DNA of 62,320 nt from Proteiniborus ethanoligenes (lineage in GTDB: Bacteria; Bacillota; Clostridia; Tissierellales; Proteiniboraceae), in the NCBI RefSeq assembly GCF_900107485.1, contig NZ_FNQE01000025.1:1-62320 (forward strand). Direction: 5' to 3'. The stretch's first letter is position 1, and the number at the start of each line of letters is the position of its first letter. Shown here piece by piece: positions 9,981-27,164 of this stretch. A program made the translations under genes and the position numbers. The notes beneath the pieces are model-generated. The model saw nothing but the letters and a program-made list of their open reading frames with translations, searched no databases and had not been told where the DNA came from.

Positions 9981-11600
9981 TTACACCGAATATACACCTT
10001 TATTTTTAACTACATACACATTATCATATTTTGTCTTTGTATCCTCAAATACTACATGACTTACATTTACCACTGTTATGCCCTCAAGACTTAAAATAGT
10101 ATTTTCTATTTCCTTTGCTATTTTAGAATCCAAGCTTGAGAAGGCTTCATCTAAGAAGATAATGTCTGTTTTTTGCAAGAGTCCTCTAGCTATGGCTACT
10201 CTACTTTTTTCTCCACCTGATATATTTTTCCCATTATCATAAATCATAGTGTCAAGACCTTGAGGAAGTGACTGAACAAAACTTTTCAGCCCTGCTCTTT
10301 CAATTGCAATATTTATATCCTCTTCAGAAAAATCTTTATATAAAGTAATATTATTTCTTAAGGTATCTTCAAATAGGAAAACCTGCTGCTCTATATTAGA
10401 TATGTGCTTAAAGTAGCTTCCTTTTGTAACATCCTTAAGATTTGCCTTATCTATTAATATTTCCCCATCTTTAGGTGAGAAATATTTTCTAAGCAATTTT
10501 AAAAGGGTAGATTTACCACCGCCACTTGGGCCTATGACTAAGTATTTCTCACCTTTTTTAAGAGATAGATTAATATTATTCAGCACATCTCCATTTTCAT
10601 AGCCAAAGGAAACATTGTTAAATTCAATAGTATGATTGAATTTTTCCAAAACAATGGTTTCTTCATAATTATCTTGATTTTCCATTGTATTCTCAATTTT
10701 CTCAAACAACTTTTTTGTTGACAATATTTTAGGTAACCATTCTCCAAATCTCATAATAGGTACAATTATTTTCTCCATATTATTTACTATTAATATAACT
10801 CCACCTAGTGTTAAGCTTCCTTTTATAGCCATGTAAGAAGTTATTCCAAGCAATGCAAAGAGGGAAATCATCATATTAAGATTTTGTAAAGAGAAAATAA
10901 AAGTAGATATTTGATCTATGATATAGCCTTTTTGTTGTATTGCATTACTTTTATTGAAAAAATCATTTTTAACCTTTTCATTTAGATTATTTGCTTTTAT
11001 TATATGAAAGGCACTTAATACTTCCTTAATATATGAAGTATAACCCTCATACAATTCACTTCTTTGAGCTTGATGCTTTTGGATAGGCTTATTAAGTAAT
11101 ATTGAAACAAGTGTACTGACAAATCCTATCCCTAAGCCTAGTGCTAAAGAAAGGGGGCTAACATATGCAATAACTATAATTCCAACTATAAAATAAACCA
11201 CACCTAGTATTATTTCATATATACCATCTATATAATTAGTTTCAATAGTATTAACATCATTAGTTAGGGTAGACACATACTTTGCATTATTATCTCTTTG
11301 AAATTCATTGATATTCTTTTTAAATATTCTACTAACATAGTTAACCTTAGCTGATACGATAGCCTTTCTTTTGTAGAGTCCTTTCCCAACGGCTAATAAT
11401 ACATTTACAGGTAAAAGTGATAATGCAAGCAATAAAAGCTTTATAGCTTCTTTATTGAACATGTCCCTATTGCCTGAAACAGCCATATCTATAGTATCCA
11501 TCATAGTAATTGAAAGGTAGCCTTCCAATACTGCGCCTGCTGAAGCAATGACAAGAACTAGTAAAAGATATGGTAATGCTTTATATATGGATTTTTTCAC
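9981..11600 (-). CDS. ABC exporter half-transporter (membrane domain plus ATPase), second gene
   Basis: A fused permease-ATPase of the MsbA/multidrug exporter type. Residues about 1-300 contain six hydrophobic segments. Residues 325-539 form the ATPase with Walker A GPSGGGKST, signature ISGGEKSR, Walker B IIFLDEAFSSLD and the switch His in VNVSH, so the site looks catalytically complete. The start is GTG and overlaps the stop of the upstream half-transporter by 4 bases (GTGA), so the two are translationally coupled and most likely form a heterodimer. No C39 peptidase domain is present, and no peptide precursor or modification enzyme is adjacent, so bacteriocin export is not supported. Substrate unknown. 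Confidence 0.9.
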   Translation of the reverse strand: MKKSIYKALPYLLLVLVIASAGAVLEGYLSITMMDTIDMAVSGNRDMFNKEAIKLLLLALSLLPVNVLLAVGKGLYKRKAIVSAKVNYVSRIFKKNINEFQRDNNAKYVSTLTNDVNTIETNYIDGIYEIILGVVYFIVGIIVIAYVSPLSLALGLGIGFVSTLVSILLNKPIQKHQAQRSELYEGYTSYIKEVLSAFHIIKANNLNEKVKNDFFNKSNAIQQKGYIIDQISTFIFSLQNLNMMISLFALLGITSYMAIKGSLTLGGVILIVNNMEKIIVPIMRFGEWLPKILSTKKLFEKIENTMENQDNYEETIVLEKFNHTIEFNNVSFGYENGDVLNNINLSLKKGEKYLVIGPSGGGKSTLLKLLRKYFSPKDGEILIDKANLKDVTKGSYFKHISNIEQQVFLFEDTLRNNITLYKDFSEEDINIAIERAGLKSFVQSLPQGLDTMIYDNGKNISGGEKSRVAIARGLLQKTDIIFLDEAFSSLDSKIAKEIENTILSLEGITVVNVSHVVFEDTKTKYDNVYVVKNKGVYSV

Positions 11601-13249
11601 AGAGCAAGCACCTCCATGCTAAAGTAATCTTGACTTTTATACTGAGTTACTAAACCGTTCTTAACCTCAAGTACATAGTCATATTTTTCTGTTATTCCCT
11701 TATAATATCTGTGAGATATAGCAATAACTGTGCTATCTAATGAAAGTATAGTATCTTCAACAGCTCTACCGAGCTCTTCATTGAGACTTGAAGTACCTTC
11801 ATCTACGAACAATATACTAGCATTTTTGACTATGGCTCTTGCAATGGAAATCCTTTGTCTCTGTCCTCCTGAAAGATTTTTACCATTTTCCATCAGAGTT
11901 TCTTGTAGGCCTAATTTTTTTTCATTTAAGAATTCAATTAACCCTGCTCCCTCTGCAGCCTTAAGGATTTTTTCCTCAGGTATATCCTTGAATAATGTAA
12001 TATTGTTAGCAATTGTATCTTCAAATAAGAACACGTCTTGATATACAAAGGATACATTATTATTTAGGCTTTCTTCTTTTATTTCCCTATAGTTTACTCC
12101 ATCCATTGTTATGCTCCCCTCATAGTCATCTACAACCATTGATAGAAGCTTTATTAGTGTAGACTTTCCAGAACCACTTTCTCCTTTGAGTAAATATTTC
12201 TTACCTTTTTCAATATTAAAGGATGCTCCTTTAAATATTTCTTTTCCATCATAATTGAATTTTAAGCCTTCTACTCTGATTTCAGAATTAAATTCAAAAT
12301 TCTTTTCTTTTACAATACTAGAGCTAGTATCTTCATCATTTTTAGTTATCTTATTGTAAATAGTATTAGATGCTCTTAATTCATTTAAAAATGGGAACAA
12401 TTGTACTATAGGCCACACACAGCCATTGGATAGCTGTAGCATTAGTGCTGTTTTAGCAAAGGATGCTCCATTTAAAATTGAACTTATGGAGTAGATTAAT
12501 ATCCCAACGAATATTACAAAGCCAAGAAAGTTAGTTAAGTTTCTTTGTCCTTCAGTAAAAACAGTGTAGTGTAGCTTTTTTCTCTCTACCTTATCAACAG
12601 CCTTTAGTGTGCTACCTAAAAATTTGTCTTCAATATTATTTAGTTTCAAAATCTCTAGACCGTTAAATGTATTTGCAATATTAGTAGTGAACTTTTCGTT
12701 GTTTTCTGATACTTCCTCTTGCAATTTCACGGTTTTCTTTTCAAAGGATTTGCTGAAGAAGAATAAAACAATAGATACTACAAATAGACTTAATGCAAAC
12801 TTGTAATCTAGAAAAAGCAATATTATTAATGATGCAGTATATTGGCCTCCAAAGTAGATTACATTTAACAATTTATGAAAAAAATGTTGTTCGAATACAT
12901 TAATATCATTTATAAGATTTGATATGTATACATCTTTAGATTTTTTGCTAAAATTCTTATATGAATGTTTAAGAATCTTATCAAAGGCTTGTATTCTAAC
13001 ATCTAAAATTGTATCCCTCATAAAGCTTATTCTCATAAATCTAGAGAGTATAAATAGCAATATACCAAGAACGGCAAAGAATATAGCTAGTGCAAAGACC
13101 TTTACAAAATAGTCCATTTGTCCTTTTTCAATACTTCCAATTATAAGTGCAAAAGAAAAGTTTCTAAGCAATGTATCCACTACAGGTAAAAAACAAGCTA
13201 ATACATATAAGATAAACCTGCCTTTTCTTTTTAACAATAACTCCTTCAT
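11597..13249 (-). CDS. ABC exporter half-transporter (membrane domain plus ATPase), first gene
   Basis: A 550-residue partner of the overlapping downstream transporter. It has six membrane segments over residues 10-300, then an ATPase with Walker A GESGSGKST, signature LSGGQRQR, Walker B ILFVDE and switch His in AISHR. The D-loop reads SSLN, with Asn where Asp is usual; the partner carries SSLD, so the two composite ATP sites may differ. I start it at the ATG at 13249, which has AGGAGGAGG about 6 bases upstream, rather than ten codons further out. A very AT-rich 340-bp region with a palindrome lies upstream. Efflux of a lipid, drug or peptide is the family role; the actual substrate is unknown. 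Confidence 0.9.
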   Translation of the reverse strand: MKELLLKRKGRFILYVLACFLPVVDTLLRNFSFALIIGSIEKGQMDYFVKVFALAIFFAVLGILLFILSRFMRISFMRDTILDVRIQAFDKILKHSYKNFSKKSKDVYISNLINDINVFEQHFFHKLLNVIYFGGQYTASLIILLFLDYKFALSLFVVSIVLFFFSKSFEKKTVKLQEEVSENNEKFTTNIANTFNGLEILKLNNIEDKFLGSTLKAVDKVERKKLHYTVFTEGQRNLTNFLGFVIFVGILIYSISSILNGASFAKTALMLQLSNGCVWPIVQLFPFLNELRASNTIYNKITKNDEDTSSSIVKEKNFEFNSEIRVEGLKFNYDGKEIFKGASFNIEKGKKYLLKGESGSGKSTLIKLLSMVVDDYEGSITMDGVNYREIKEESLNNNVSFVYQDVFLFEDTIANNITLFKDIPEEKILKAAEGAGLIEFLNEKKLGLQETLMENGKNLSGGQRQRISIARAIVKNASILFVDEGTSSLNEELGRAVEDTILSLDSTVIAISHRYYKGITEKYDYVLEVKNGLVTQYKSQDYFSMEVLAL

Positions 13250-13269
13250 AGCATTCCTCCTCCTAAAAC

Positions 13270-13420
13270 CAAAGGTCATTTTAATTATTTTAATATATTT
13301 ATCATCTTAATCAATATTCTAATAGATATTTTATATATGTCAATAGTATTTATTAAAATTATTAAAAAATAATTTAAATATATTAATAAACAAATTAAAA
13401 TATTTAAGTTTAATAGTTGA
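13270..13420. other. Extremely AT-rich intergenic segment
   Basis: Part of the 340-bp gap between the exporter pair and the rhomboid gene. This stretch is nearly all A and T. A 79-codon minus-strand reading frame crosses it but has low-complexity Ile/Asn/Tyr composition and no clear ribosome binding site, so I do not call a gene. It may be promoter-associated flexible or curved DNA. Confidence 0.5.
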
Positions 13421-14703: not shown

Positions 14704-14705
14704 TC

Positions 14706-14740
14706 AAAACCATATGACAAATGTCATATGGTTTTGTTAT
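14706..14740 (+). terminator. Terminator of the rhomboid gene
   Basis: A perfect stem of at least 12 bp (AAAACCATATGAC with GTCATATGGTTTT), a four-base loop and a T-rich tail. Confidence 0.85.
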
Positions 14741-14813
14741 TTAGGTCATTATCTTTTCAGATTTTTTTATACTATGATTATATTATAGAGAAAAGTTAAA
14801 GGAGGGTCTTGCT

Positions 14814-15746
14814 TTGGTAGTTGAAATAAAGAATATAGTGAAGCGTTATAAGGAGGATTTGGCAGTTGACAATGTAAGCTTGTCTATAAAAGAGGGAGAG
14901 GTATTTGGGTTGCTAGGACCAAATGGAGCAGGAAAAACAACAACAATTAATGCTTTAATGGGATTAACTAAAATAGACAAGGGGGAAATCCTAGTATTTC
15001 AGAAAAATATTAATAAATTTAGTAATGAGATTAAAAAAGAAATAGGTATAGTACCTCAAGATATAGCCATATATACAGATTTGACAGTTTATGAAAATAT
15101 AATATTTTTTGCAAAGCTTTATGGACTTAGAGATAGCTTACTGAAAGAAAGAGCGGAAGAGGTTATAGAGTTTACAGGACTGCAAGATAAGAAAAAGGCA
15201 TTTGCAAGAAATCTTTCTGGAGGAATGAAAAGAAGATTAAATATCGCCTGTGCTATAGCTCACCATCCTAAACTAATAATAATGGATGAGCCTACTGTGG
15301 GCATAGATCCTCAATCTAGAAATCACATATTAGAATCAATAAAAAAACTGAATAAAAATGGCTCTACAATTATATATACCTCTCACTATATGGAAGAAGT
15401 AGAAGAGCTTTGCACCAATATAGCTATAATGGACAAAGGAAAGATAATTGCTCAGGGAAGCGGTGATGAATTAAAGGAATTAATAGCTGTTGACCATAGG
15501 GTGTCATTTGATCTTTCTTCTGTAAACTTTACCCTAGTAGATAATATTAAAAATATAACTGGGGTTATTGATTGCATAATAGAAGGGAACAAAATAATTG
15601 TAGTGTCTAAAGCAGATAGTAAAAATCTTAGTCGTATAATTGACTGTATCGTAAACACTGGAGTTGATATATTGAACATAAATATAGAAAGACCAAATCT
15701 AGAGGGAGTATTCCTAACCCTAACTGGTAGGTCACTAAGAGATTAG
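14814..15746 (+). CDS. ABC transporter ATP-binding protein, linearmycin/daunorubicin-export type
   Basis: A 310-residue ATPase energising the two ABC-2 permeases encoded just downstream. Walker A GPNGAGKTT lies near residue 38, the signature LSGGMKRR near 137, Walker B LIIMDEP near 158, and the switch His in YTSHY near 190. A C-terminal domain of about 90 residues follows, as in DrrA/LnrL-type proteins. The start is TTG at 14814 with GGAGGG about 8 bases upstream. It is the first gene of a five-gene run (ATPase, permease, permease, kinase, regulator) that matches the composition of Bacillus lnrJKLMN, though with the kinase and regulator last. Export of an amphipathic antibiotic or lipid-active compound is inferred. 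Confidence 0.92.
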   Translation: MVVEIKNIVKRYKEDLAVDNVSLSIKEGEVFGLLGPNGAGKTTTINALMGLTKIDKGEILVFQKNINKFSNEIKKEIGIVPQDIAIYTDLTVYENIIFFAKLYGLRDSLLKERAEEVIEFTGLQDKKKAFARNLSGGMKRRLNIACAIAHHPKLIIMDEPTVGIDPQSRNHILESIKKLNKNGSTIIYTSHYMEEVEELCTNIAIMDKGKIIAQGSGDELKELIAVDHRVSFDLSSVNFTLVDNIKNITGVIDCIIEGNKIIVVSKADSKNLSRIIDCIVNTGVDILNINIERPNLEGVFLTLTGRSLRD

Positions 15747-15757
15747 GAGGTGAGCAT

Positions 15758-16900
15758 GTGAATATATTTAATATAGCTTATTATAGTCTAATAAGAAATC
15801 TTAGAGATAGAAAGACCCTAAGTCTCATGATGCTGTTACCCTTATTAAGTACATTAATTTTAGGCTCTGCATTGAGCAGCTCATTTATTGTATCATCAAT
15901 AGGAAAAACCACTATATGCTACTTAAATCAGGACAAAGGGTGGGCTGGAGAGGCCTTTCATCAGTTTATTAATAGTGAAGATACTAAGTCCATTATTGAG
16001 CTTAAGGAGATTTCTTCTTATGATGAGGGAGTTAGCTTAATAAGAGAAAGAAAAGCTTCAGCTATAGTTATTATAGAATCAAATTTTTCTCAAGAGCTAG
16101 GACTAGGAAAAGAGGCTAATATAAGGATATATAATAGTCAGTATAGTAATTATAGAAGCTCAATTATTAATAATTTAGTGGAAAGCTTTATTAATATGAG
16201 TAGCTCTAGAATTGCAATAGAGGAAATAGGAAGGAAGAATTTTGTCCCTATATATAGCGATAATATTGAAGAAATATCCATATCTTCAACAGGAAATCTT
16301 CCGAGGGCGATAGACTATTATGCTGTAACCATGCTGGTTATGTCTATAATGTATGGGACAATATATGGAGCCTACGCAATTGGAGAGGATGAGATTTTAA
16401 AAACAGAAATAAGGCTAAAAAGCTCACCTATTAAAAACTATCAGATTTTCTTGGGGAAATTGTTAGGAACAATAGTCACATTGATTTTGCAGGTACTTAT
16501 TATGATCGGCTTCACTAAATTTGTCTATAAATCAAACTGGGGCGATAATATGCCTATTATACTCTTTACATGTTTTTCAGCTATAGTTATGGTAGTAGGT
16601 ATAGGAATAATGACTCATAGCATATTTAGAGATTCTAATAAAGCTTCAAGTATATTAAACTTAGCAGTTGCATTATTTACCTATTTAGGAGGAGGCTATT
16701 TCCCCATAGATGGATTTACGCCTAAAATGAAGCTAATATCCTCATATATATCCCCTAACTATATGATACAAAATATAATATTTAATAGTATATATGGAGG
16801 AAGCAATAAGGAGATTCAAAATTATCTAATAGCCATATGGAGCATTACCATCCTAACTTTTATAATATCTTCCCTTTTAGGAAGGAGGAATGTAGCATGA
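15758..16900 (+). CDS. ABC-2 type permease, first subunit of the exporter
   Basis: A 380-residue membrane protein with the ABC-2 layout: one N-terminal membrane segment (about 20-42), an extracytoplasmic stretch of about 150 residues, then five or six membrane segments from 190 to the end, including 'YLGGGYFP' near 310. It starts at GTG 15758 with AGGAGGTG 7 bases upstream, 11 bases after the ATPase stop. Its last 4 bases overlap the next permease (ATGA), so the two subunits are coupled and probably form the heterodimeric channel. Confidence 0.88.
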   Translation: MNIFNIAYYSLIRNLRDRKTLSLMMLLPLLSTLILGSALSSSFIVSSIGKTTICYLNQDKGWAGEAFHQFINSEDTKSIIELKEISSYDEGVSLIRERKASAIVIIESNFSQELGLGKEANIRIYNSQYSNYRSSIINNLVESFINMSSSRIAIEEIGRKNFVPIYSDNIEEISISSTGNLPRAIDYYAVTMLVMSIMYGTIYGAYAIGEDEILKTEIRLKSSPIKNYQIFLGKLLGTIVTLILQVLIMIGFTKFVYKSNWGDNMPIILFTCFSAIVMVVGIGIMTHSIFRDSNKASSILNLAVALFTYLGGGYFPIDGFTPKMKLISSYISPNYMIQNIIFNSIYGGSNKEIQNYLIAIWSITILTFIISSLLGRRNVA

Positions 16901-18003
16901 TTATTTTTAAAAACAATATTACAAGAATATTAAGAAAAAAGAGTAATATAATTTTTATGATTATTTTGCCTATATTAACTATGGTGATTTCCCTCAAATT
17001 TACTAATGTTAGCTACCCACCAACAGTAGGAATTATAGATAGAGACAACACAGAGCTAACTAGTTTTTTAATCAATAGCTTAGAAAACAATTGTGAGGTA
17101 GTATTCATAGATGAAGATGATATAAAGGATAAATTAATAAAGGGAGCCATAGAATTTGCAATAAATATTCCTAATGGATTTACTGAAAATATAATCACTA
17201 ATAAAGAGTCAAAAGTTAATACATATAAGATAAAAGATACAGAACATACTATTCCTTTAAGTATGTCATTAAATAACAATATAAACTCATTTAAGAATAT
17301 TGCTAGAGCTACAGAAGGAGACTATGAAAGCTTTTATAAGGGCTTAGACAGTTATAAAAGTGGAAACCTAGGTGTTGAGTATAAAAACATAGAGGGAACT
17401 GATAGAAAACAGGATAAGCTATTGCAAAGTTTTGGATTTATAATCATGTTTATGATGTATCTTTCTAATAATGTAGCTAGATTAATGCTTGAAGACAAAA
17501 GATATAAAACATATGCTAGAATATTCTGTTCGCCTATTAGCTCTAAAAGCTATATGCTGCAAAACATATTAAGCTTTATAACTATTATTTTTATCCAGGT
17601 TGCAATAGTTTTTACAGTAGCAACAAAAATGATAAATATAAATTTAGGTCCATCTATTAAAGGAATGTTTTTATTATTAATAATTTTCGGTGTTTGTAGT
17701 GTAGCTATGGCAGTTGCCATAAATATTCTGTCTAAAGATATGAGACAAGGCAATGTAACTTCGCAGTTTATAATATTGCCAATGAGTCTTCTTGGCGGAT
17801 GCTTCTGGCCTAGAGAGATTATGCCGAAATTCCTACAGCAGCTTGCTAGGTTTATCCCTGTAACCTGGACATTGGAAGGAATAGAGAAGCTGCTTTTTCA
17901 ACCTGATATAAAAATTGCAGGGACAGAAGTAATTATACTTATATTATTTTCCACAGTGTTTTTTCTTTTAGGATTAAATAGAAGAAATAACATGGAGCTT
18001 TAA
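16897..18003 (+). CDS. ABC-2 type permease, second subunit of the exporter
   Basis: A 368-residue partner permease with the same layout as the preceding one: one membrane segment near 12-32, a large external loop, and several membrane segments from about 175 to 365. The conserved 'LGGCFWPREIMP' and 'PVTWTLEG' stretch near 295-330 is typical of ABC-2 permeases. I chose the ATG at 16897, directly behind GGAAGGAGG and overlapping the upstream stop by 4 bases, over a start 20 codons earlier inside the previous gene. Confidence 0.88.
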   Translation: MIIFKNNITRILRKKSNIIFMIILPILTMVISLKFTNVSYPPTVGIIDRDNTELTSFLINSLENNCEVVFIDEDDIKDKLIKGAIEFAINIPNGFTENIITNKESKVNTYKIKDTEHTIPLSMSLNNNINSFKNIARATEGDYESFYKGLDSYKSGNLGVEYKNIEGTDRKQDKLLQSFGFIIMFMMYLSNNVARLMLEDKRYKTYARIFCSPISSKSYMLQNILSFITIIFIQVAIVFTVATKMININLGPSIKGMFLLLIIFGVCSVAMAVAINILSKDMRQGNVTSQFIILPMSLLGGCFWPREIMPKFLQQLARFIPVTWTLEGIEKLLFQPDIKIAGTEVIILILFSTVFFLLGLNRRNNMEL

Positions 18004-18072
18004 AAAGGAATTTTGCAGTAAAACGTAGAAGTCTATTAAAATCTATAGAAAAATTAAGTGGGGTATGAATTT

Positions 18073-19188
18073 ATGCATTATATATTTAAACTATTGATTC
18101 TAATATACACAATATTTAAAATGTCAATTTCATATGAAATATCCCCTACAGAAATAATAATTCTATTGGTTGTCATATCCTTTGACATATATAGAGAAAA
18201 ATATAATAAGCATGAAGCTTTAGATATTATTATAGCTCTAATAGAAGCTACACTTATAGCTGTAGGAGCTAGATATAATTCACTATTTATTATTTTATTA
18301 GCTATTGGGGCTTATGATTTTATTAGAGTTAGAATATATTTTTTAATTATCCCTATATTATTATTTGGATTTTTTACGTTAGGCTTAAATCAGTTTGGAG
18401 ATTTTTCTCTATTAATAGTATTGAGCTGCTTCTTTTCCTTTGTGACTACTAGCCTAAAGGAGAAGGAAACAAATTATAAAGAAAGCTATGATAGAGAAAG
18501 ACAATACAGATACGACCTAGAACAAAGTAGAATAAAGCTAATAAACATGTCTAAGGAAATAGTTTATATAACAGAGGTTAAGGAGAGAAACCGTATAGCT
18601 AGAGAAATTCACGATACTGTAGGCCATAAAATTGCAGGAGTTTTACTACAATTACAGGCTTCCTTTAAGCTCCGAACTAAGGACAATGAAAAATCAGATA
18701 AGCTACTTAAAGACTCTATTGAAAACCTATCAGATACTTTAATAGTACTTAGAAATACAGTCCATAATATTAAGCCAAAGGATAAAGTAGGCATAGAATA
18801 TATTAAAGAAATTATCCACAACTTTTCTTTTTGCACCGTAGACTTTAGCTACAAAGGAGATTTTAATAATATTTCTCCAAATAACTTAGAAGTCATTAGT
18901 CTTAGCATTAAGGAAGCATTAACTAATGCTTCGAAGCATTCTCAAGCTGATAAGATAATTATCAGTATAGATGTATATGAAAAATTTATTAGGCTTTTTA
19001 TAAAAGATAATGGAACAGGCTGTGAGAATATAAAAGAAGGTTTAGGTATTAGCGGAATGAGAGAAAGACTCACTAATATAGGGGGCAGCATTTCTATTGA
19101 CTCAAGGGATGGATTTATGATTGTAGCCATTATACCAATAGAAAACATACAAGGAGGTGTGAGGATTGAAGGTACTTATAGTAGATGA
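18073..19188 (+). CDS. Sensor histidine kinase, NarL-partner (HisKA_3) type
   Basis: A 371-residue membrane sensor. Four to five membrane segments span residues 1-125 with almost no external loop, the intramembrane-sensing layout used by kinases paired with ABC exporters. The dimerisation/phosphoacceptor helix carries His180 in 'REIHDTVGHK'. The ATPase domain has the N box 'KEALTNASKHS' and the G box 'DNGTG..GLGISGM'. I prefer the ATG at 18073, behind AAGTGGGG, to the GTG 15 bases earlier. Its 3' end overlaps the response regulator by 23 bases. It probably senses the compound, or the membrane stress it causes, and controls the exporter genes upstream. Confidence 0.9.
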   Translation: MHYIFKLLILIYTIFKMSISYEISPTEIIILLVVISFDIYREKYNKHEALDIIIALIEATLIAVGARYNSLFIILLAIGAYDFIRVRIYFLIIPILLFGFFTLGLNQFGDFSLLIVLSCFFSFVTTSLKEKETNYKESYDRERQYRYDLEQSRIKLINMSKEIVYITEVKERNRIAREIHDTVGHKIAGVLLQLQASFKLRTKDNEKSDKLLKDSIENLSDTLIVLRNTVHNIKPKDKVGIEYIKEIIHNFSFCTVDFSYKGDFNNISPNNLEVISLSIKEALTNASKHSQADKIIISIDVYEKFIRLFIKDNGTGCENIKEGLGISGMRERLTNIGGSISIDSRDGFMIVAIIPIENIQGGVRIEGTYSR

Positions 19189-19792
19189 TGATGGTTTGAT
19201 AAGAGATAGCTTGAAAATACTTCTGGGCTTAGAGTCTGATATAGAAGTAGTGGGTATTGCATCTAATGGACAAGAAGCCTTTGATTTATGCGGAAGAATT
19301 AGACCAGATATAGTTCTTATGGACATAAGAATGCCGATAATGGATGGAGTATTAGGTACAAAGCTTATAAAAGAACATTTTAGCCATACCAAAGTAATAA
19401 TATTAACAACCTTTAAGGATGACGAATACATAAGAGAAGCAATAAAGAACGGAGCGGAAGGTTATATTTTGAAAAATCAATCCTCTGATAGTATTGTAGA
19501 TAGCTTAAGGGCAGTATATAGAGGGAATACAGTATTAGATAAGGAAATTGCAGATACTTTAACCTCAATGATAAAGGATAAACCGGATAAAAAGAATGAT
19601 GTAGATTACGATTTTGGAAACAGAGAACTAGAAATATTAAAACTAATATCAGAAGGCCTATCTAATAAAGAGATAGGAGCTCGGCTTTATTTAAGTGAAG
19701 GTACTGTTAGAAATTATATAACTGGGCTTTTAGATAAATTAAACTTAAGAGATAGAACCCAGCTGGCTATATTTTATTTAAAGAATATGTAG
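19166..19792 (+). CDS. NarL/FixJ-type response regulator
   Basis: A 208-residue two-component regulator. The receiver domain (1-120) has the acidic triad Asp7-Asp8 and phosphoacceptor Asp53 (LMDIRMP), Thr near 83 and Lys near 105. A LuxR-type helix-turn-helix follows (about 145-205, 'LSNKEIGARLYLSEGTVRNY'). The start is TTG at 19166 with AGGAGG 8 bases upstream, inside the end of the kinase gene. It is the cognate partner of that kinase. The likely target is the promoter of the exporter operon near 14750-14810, but I could not recognise a binding site there. Confidence 0.93.
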   Translation: MKVLIVDDDGLIRDSLKILLGLESDIEVVGIASNGQEAFDLCGRIRPDIVLMDIRMPIMDGVLGTKLIKEHFSHTKVIILTTFKDDEYIREAIKNGAEGYILKNQSSDSIVDSLRAVYRGNTVLDKEIADTLTSMIKDKPDKKNDVDYDFGNRELEILKLISEGLSNKEIGARLYLSEGTVRNYITGLLDKLNLRDRTQLAIFYLKNM

Positions 19793-19828
19793 AGCAAGAA
19801 TTACTAAAATAATTCTTGCTCTGTTTTT
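19791..19828 (+). terminator. Terminator of the exporter/two-component operon
   Basis: A 13-bp stem (AGAGCAAGAATTA with TAATTCTTGCTCT) is followed by GTTTTTA. The stem begins within the stop codon of the response regulator gene. Confidence 0.85.

Positions 19829-23624: not shown

Positions 23625-27164
<3,540 letters not shown>

Follow-up and report, generated by a model that had tools for sequence, protein, structure and literature searches.

Among the described systems, the linearmycin-resistance locus LnrJKLMN (yfiJKLMN) of Bacillus subtilis combines an ATPase, two ABC-2 permeases, a kinase and a regulator of the NarL group. The published work describes five transmembrane segments in the kinase LnrJ (PMC4672918), an extracellular domain in the permeases (PMC4672918, PMC11466899, PMC7472640), and, in the lnrK-lnrL interval, a terminator with a separate promoter (PMC7472640). 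A second group for comparison is formed by des-desKR and yvfRS-yvfTU of B. subtilis, like clusters with SA1313/SA1314, and pneumococcal TCS11 (PMC7726353, PMC11034029). According to these sources, yvfRS-yvfTU has the order ABC-kinase-regulator, a des-like promoter and cold-responsive kinases (PMC7726353); the DesR motif is ATGACA-N2-TGTCAT, with a similar one for pneumococcal RR11 (PMC11034029); and the promoters of the des/yvf type carry this inverted repeat plus a direct repeat (PMC7726353, PMC11034029). Here we have compared with both groups a five-gene operon located at positions 14814 to 19792 of a 62,320-nucleotide stretch of Proteiniborus ethanoligenes (contig NZ_FNQE01000025.1, from position 1), called the window below. 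On balance, we favor the reading that this operon is an autoregulated exporter module for lipophilic, membrane-active compounds, of the Lnr/SagH-like two-permease type and under the control of a Des-type operator.

The operon encodes, all on the forward strand, an ABC ATPase (14814..15746; TTG start; ABC_tran, PF00005, 1.3e-34), a first ABC-2 permease (P1) (15758..16900; ABC2_membrane_3, PF12698, 1.5e-33), a second ABC-2 permease (P2) (16897..18003; PF12698, 1.2e-42, scored on a longer open reading frame (ORF) from 16837), a sensor kinase (18073..19188; HisKA_3, 2.3e-15; HATPase_c, 4.8e-7; phospho-acceptor H180), and a response regulator of the NarL/DesR type (19166..19792; Response_reg, 5.1e-27; GerE, 2.9e-16). 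The reading frames most likely begin at the ATG at 16897, in an ATGA overlap, rather than at 16837 for P2, and at the ATG at 18073 rather than the GTG at 18058 for the kinase. The preliminary description of this DNA had proposed the same five genes, packed in an overlapping operon. The intact ORFs and the Pfam matches bear out the gene set, and the overlap holds for two of the four junctions (4 bases between P1 and P2, 23 between kinase and regulator), whereas the other two are gaps of 11 and 69 bases. All five proteins stayed below the cut-offs of the NCBIfam models, the best scores being 285.8 of 312.45 bits for the ATPase (drrA), 224.3 of 450 for P1 and 74.8 of 450 for P2 (both SagH), 82.3 of 700 for the kinase (MctS), and 150.7 of 250 for the regulator (NarL). 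The genes are bounded by two terminator-like hairpins on the forward strand, an inverted repeat at 14705..14736, found by a hairpin scan and by upstream comparison, and a hairpin at the operon end (19789..19824) found by the scan. The scan is weak evidence by itself, since it returned 5 hairpins in 8 kb against 2.9 expected.

At the center of the upstream inverted repeat lies TATGACA-AA-TGTCATA (14713..14728, no strand assigned), a 7-2-7 palindrome that is the predicted binding site of the regulator. It is the single exact match in the window, and with two mismatches or fewer there are 3 matches against 0.47 expected. TATGACA-N2-TGTCATA was found 94-153 bases upstream of the ATPase gene in the window and its relatives (a range that leaves out L217, whose start is miscalled), and 9 of the 11 promoters of the window clade carry an exact core, TGACA-N2-TGTCA. 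Alignment on the palindrome revealed a half-site conserved downstream of it, TCATTAT (14746..14752, forward strand), close to the -35 position, and a probable -10 box, TATGAT (14773..14778, forward strand), with a like box and spacing in most of the nine aligned clade promoters; the half-site likewise keeps its spacing in most of them. A site proposed by a promoter scan at 14756-14784 (9 of 12) was dropped; the relatives keep the TATGAT box instead. In the own genome, where exact sites were searched, ATGACANNTGTCAT (ATGACA-N2-TGTCAT) occurs at two places only, the operon site and C36:13867. The latter sits at the 3' ends of neighboring ORFs, and the site at 14713-14728 is the one in promoter position. 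A scan of viral contigs with the full operator matched 111 stretches.

The palindrome could also be the mere terminator of the upstream gene, conserved as such, given that in the window, L044, L217, and L220 a long hairpin is built around it. We regard this explanation as highly improbable, since L074, L219, and L221 retain little beyond the core, a divergent clade has the palindrome between divergent genes, the half-site and -10 spacing are kept, and a des promoter shares the palindrome.

The distribution of the box follows the recognition helix of the regulator. An exact TGACA-N2-TGTCA was found in 39 of 113 related kinase-regulator pairs (L216, the same stretch as L072, was excluded) when the regions upstream of the kinase, the ATPase or the leading regulator gene were searched; these 39 matches in 68,266 upstream bases compare with a mean of 0.06 and a largest value of 1 in 50 shuffles. 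All of them belong to pairs with RN following GTV or GTI in the recognition helix (39/61), against 0/44 for the other helices (Fisher 4e-13, kinship uncorrected), 8 of the 113 pairs being unreadable. The window regulator, with the helix EGTVRNY, belongs to the RN class. In divergent kinase/ABC loci such as L086, L088, L109, L126, and L145 the box lies between the kinase and ATPase genes, and therefore one site may serve both promoters; such a box between divergent genes was seen in many gut-clostridial loci.

To compare the operon with LnrJKLMN, we have used as reference the locus L179 of a Bacilli genome (G283), chosen via the yfiJ and yfiK alleles given in PMC4672918. Among 17 kinase loci from 299 Bacilli genomes, only that of G283 carries all six LnrJ residues in register (A88, A152, T164, H167, H201, and L254, with V at position 1 from a GTG codon), and the next best loci match four of the six. 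The gene after this kinase has D54 and T83 and is followed by an ATPase and two permeases. These eight residues together with the gene order suggest that L179 is an LnrJKLMN orthologue.

The preliminary description had pointed out that the content matches the linearmycin-resistance locus, and in kind it does: the parts are the same, the kinase is of the intramembrane type, and the H-boxes are similar (HDTVGH here and HDIVGH in the Lnr orthologue). That the operon would be this locus in another gene order, an orthologue conferring resistance to linear or cyclic polyenes, is very unlikely in the light of the trees. In a tree of the joined ATPase, P1 and P2 sequences (52 of 65 systems, 13 having been dropped for long branches, short permeases, fragments or thinning), the window falls in a clade of 15 rows (support 99), whereas the four Lnr rows fall in another clade of 10 rows (support 99) together with an operon on contig C16 of the own genome. 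Joining the window clade and Lnr lowered the log-likelihood by 173.5 and was rejected by the approximately unbiased (AU) test (p-AU 5e-52; 28 of the 52 rows, 9 + 4 against 15, LG+G4 without site mixture). We rely on the three-protein tree because a P1-only tree of all 65 systems is weak for the window clade (support 52; the long rows L049, L076, and L083 fall inside it); this tree, too, leaves the window out of the 18-row clade (support 96) that holds the Lnr rows. A first kinase tree, which omits 4 of 57 kinase rows, recovers the same clades as the exporter tree, with a window clade of 10 rows (support 99). Here the joint clade with LnrJ gave a borderline AU value of p 0.066 and is not rejected at 0.05, so that, judged by the kinase only, a link to LnrJ may exist. 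Thus, the phylogenetic check proposed at the outset speaks against Lnr for the exporter and is not decisive for the kinase.

The control elements differ as well: the Lnr branch has a helix with KNH (EGTVKNH) and its loci showed no TGACA-N2-TGTCA box in the regions searched, whereas the window combines the RNY helix with the Des-type box. The SagH model scores 224 bits with the window P1 and 147 with the LnrM orthologue, both under its cut-off of 450. By these comparisons, the exporter unit is similar to LnrJKLMN without being its orthologue. The C16 operon (L063 6669-13126; C16:34668-41125) has the order kinase-regulator-lipoprotein-like protein-ATPase-two permeases, its extra gene having a lipoprotein-like start and no Pfam match. 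It contains the same five families, with a KNH helix and no box, and in the exporter tree it is nearer to Lnr and a better Lnr candidate in the own genome than the window operon.

The gene order needs no rearrangement to be explained, because it is that of yvfRSTU and is constant in the window clade, with the ABC genes first, in contrast to the kinase-regulator-ABC order of L179. The ABC genes come first in 10 of the 10 clade operons with the kinase in view (the window, L044, L072, L074, L075, L217, L218, L220, L221, and L226), two ORFs intervening in L074. The stretches of L199 and L219 run into contig ends, that of L073 opens at the kinase gene, and no kinase is present in the parts read of L225 and the g61 loci. 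Loci fetched by kinase similarity supplied 62 complete systems of this make-up: 31 are divergent, 19 have the order kinase-regulator-ABC, 10 ABC-kinase-regulator (four in the window clade and six outside it), and 2 regulator-kinase-ABC. The five-gene arrangement is not due to chance, but it is common. Of the 391 genomes searched in the class, 24 gave a P1 match at E 1e-30, the own genome among them, and 35 of 41 near-kin genomes contain a related kinase at E 0.001, a close one beyond the own genome being found only in G002 (67%). This genome, of the same genus, has a complete syntenic operon. In G001, also of the same genus and at the same place, the regulator is intact (81%), and there remain a 33-residue C-terminal piece of the kinase and a piece of P2. 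This decayed copy (L043 8588-9573, G001:C44) shows short GTGCAATAGGGACA repeats beside the scar. Since G001 retains only fragments and the regulator, the module can be lost.

With regard to the sensor, the AlphaFold2 model of the kinase (m7679e2601c9d, built from 12 sequences; mean predicted local distance difference test score (pLDDT) 82.6, predicted template modeling score (pTM) 0.42) contains helices at residues 2-19, 25-44, 48-68, 70-85, and 89-200, separated by gaps of 5, 3, 1, and 3 residues, i.e., four short helices and a long one reaching from the membrane as far as the H180 bundle. The prediction is thus a kinase with five helices in the membrane and without an extracellular loop, consistent with the previous proposal of a kinase with almost no such loop.

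Its best matches in a sequence search of the PDB are DesK entries, and the window shares with the Des/yvf group the Des-type operator before the first gene, the helix TVRNYI, found likewise in the DesR orthologue, and the yvfRSTU gene order (PMC7726353). It could accordingly be proposed that the operon is a thermosensor circuit like that of DesK/YvfT, switched on by cold or lipid ordering and exporting a lipid or envelope precursor rather than an antibiotic. The des locus of G283 provides a direct comparison, with a desaturase gene (PF00487) preceded by TATGACA-AG-TGTCATA, a kinase with DesK_N (176 bits) and the regulator helix NGTVRNY. DesK_N (PF23540) found no match in the window kinase at E 0.001, against those 176 bits in a true DesK. 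In a second kinase tree, which omits 14 of 57 rows and adds 6 Bacilli rows, and in the regulator tree, DesK and YvfT stand far apart in a third clade of their own (three rows, support 100), with the window outside it. Moreover, the window has two permeases of 368-380 amino acids, against one of 245 in the YvfRSTU-like locus L263. A thermosensor of this kind is therefore unlikely, although it is the alternative to which we give the most weight.

The exporter itself supports the reading as a module for lipophilic compounds through its fold. The P1 model (mf13f8c7bc2bf, pTM 0.58) has an alpha/beta insert at about residues 51-158 that, in the model, resembles the extracellular domain of LnrLMN described in PMC11466899. 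Compared with solved structures, it gave 27 matches at E 0.001, the first five being chains of Tribolium ABCH-9C; the top ones, 8z01 and 8yzp (E 2e-10, template modeling scores 0.58 and 0.57), have ceramide in their titles, as do three of the five ABCH-9C entries in all. The following matches are mostly ABCG25, ABCG2, ABCG5/G8, and ABCA3. A PDB sequence search with P1 returned, up to E 1, a sole match at E 0.42. In a plasmid collection, P2 matched 13 records (best identity 27.6%) and P1 matched 2, and none of the 548 records matched by the kinase covered 80% of the query. On the Paenibacillus polymyxa plasmid p-YT9A (L070 3904-7131), a related ATPase and two permeases directly follow a carrier/thioester-reductase gene.

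The exporter of the window clade is also found in three g61 genomes of one genus (L222, L223, and L224; P1 35%), within a polyketide synthase/nonribosomal peptide synthetase cluster that includes a PadR regulator and a B12-binding radical SAM protein, with no kinase in the 12-14 kb read. In the one g61 genome scanned we have detected ketosynthase, ketoreductase, carrier, condensation, AMP-binding, and radical SAM domains; two of the three genomes were placed in the exporter tree. In the own genome there is no YcaO match and no condensation domain, and therefore no own product of these classes. It is most likely that the window clade handles lipophilic natural products and that in P. ethanoligenes the module would protect against foreign ones. 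The protection from a membrane-active compound suggested in the preliminary description is thus, by inference, the likeliest role.

The SagH model, the best NCBIfam model for P1, raises the question of a SagGHI-like exporter of a ribosomal, YcaO-modified peptide. The SagGHI order is ATPase-permease-permease, as in the window. The score of P1 is, however, half of the cut-off, the genome lacks a YcaO match, the window exporter is joined to a kinase and a regulator, and no biosynthetic gene was recognized among the window ORFs, whose N-termini were read by eye and not by a search. This origin seems scarcely credible to us. The SagH models themselves gave 0 matches over the cut-off in the 299 Bacilli genomes, and 16 at E 1e-80. 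The BceAB/BceRS systems have an OmpR-type regulator and one large permease of the FtsX type, whereas the window has a GerE regulator and ABC2_membrane_3 permeases.

In the exporter module that we favor, the ATPase and the two unlike permeases would form an ABC-2 exporter of a lipophilic, membrane-active compound, and the kinase, having five helices and no outer domain, would sense this compound as a disturbance inside the membrane and phosphorylate the regulator. The latter may then bind the palindrome at 14713-14728 together with the half-site at 14746-14752 and start the transcription of the whole operon. From the comparisons above we infer that the regulator binds and activates at the palindrome, that the substrate is lipophilic and that a disturbance of the membrane is the stimulus.

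Several observations weigh against this interpretation. The palindrome is missing in 2 of the 11 clade promoters, L075 having a degenerate copy and L226 a displaced one that precedes a DUF418 gene, itself upstream of the ATPase gene. No exact site was found in the regions searched in 22 of the 61 RN loci; some of these have a site farther upstream, before a desaturase gene in L107 and a periplasmic-binding-protein gene in L112. Independent cases of the helix-operator association may be few, because the regulators of the window clade fall in one group with those of the divergent clade (support 90). The substrate class rests on the fold and on the gene cluster of one genus, the P1 model rests on 8 sequences with a pLDDT of 72.9, and the polysaccharide exporters KpsMT (8tsh) and WzmWzt (7k2t) also appear in the fold list, below E 0.001.

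Elsewhere in the window, two overlapping ORFs on the strand opposite to the operon (9981-13279) encode half exporters with ABC_membrane and ABC_tran domains, and such a pair is located near the operon site in G002 and G001 too. The ORF 23640-27164, which we take to be similar to pyruvate:ferredoxin oxidoreductase, fits an anaerobe.

The Des-type switch has been known so far from lipid-order sensing in Bacilli. Tentatively, and with less confidence than we have in the module itself, we propose that this switch, an RN helix with a TGACA-N2-TGTCA box, is coupled across Clostridia to Lnr/SagH-like two-permease exporters, so that the effect of membrane-active natural products on the membrane would be sensed and the compound itself would not be bound. 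The five-gene clostridial form is named in no title that we found in the open-licence PMC literature, which is not proof that it is unpublished. With these results, a large set of clostridial regulators gains a specific target site in the DNA, and the clostridial systems are set apart from the linearmycin system, with which they might be confused. The question raised in PMC7726353, namely the cargo of the exporters encoded beside DesK-like kinases, becomes testable. If the helix-operator rule is true, it would allow the target promoters of such regulators to be read from sequence.

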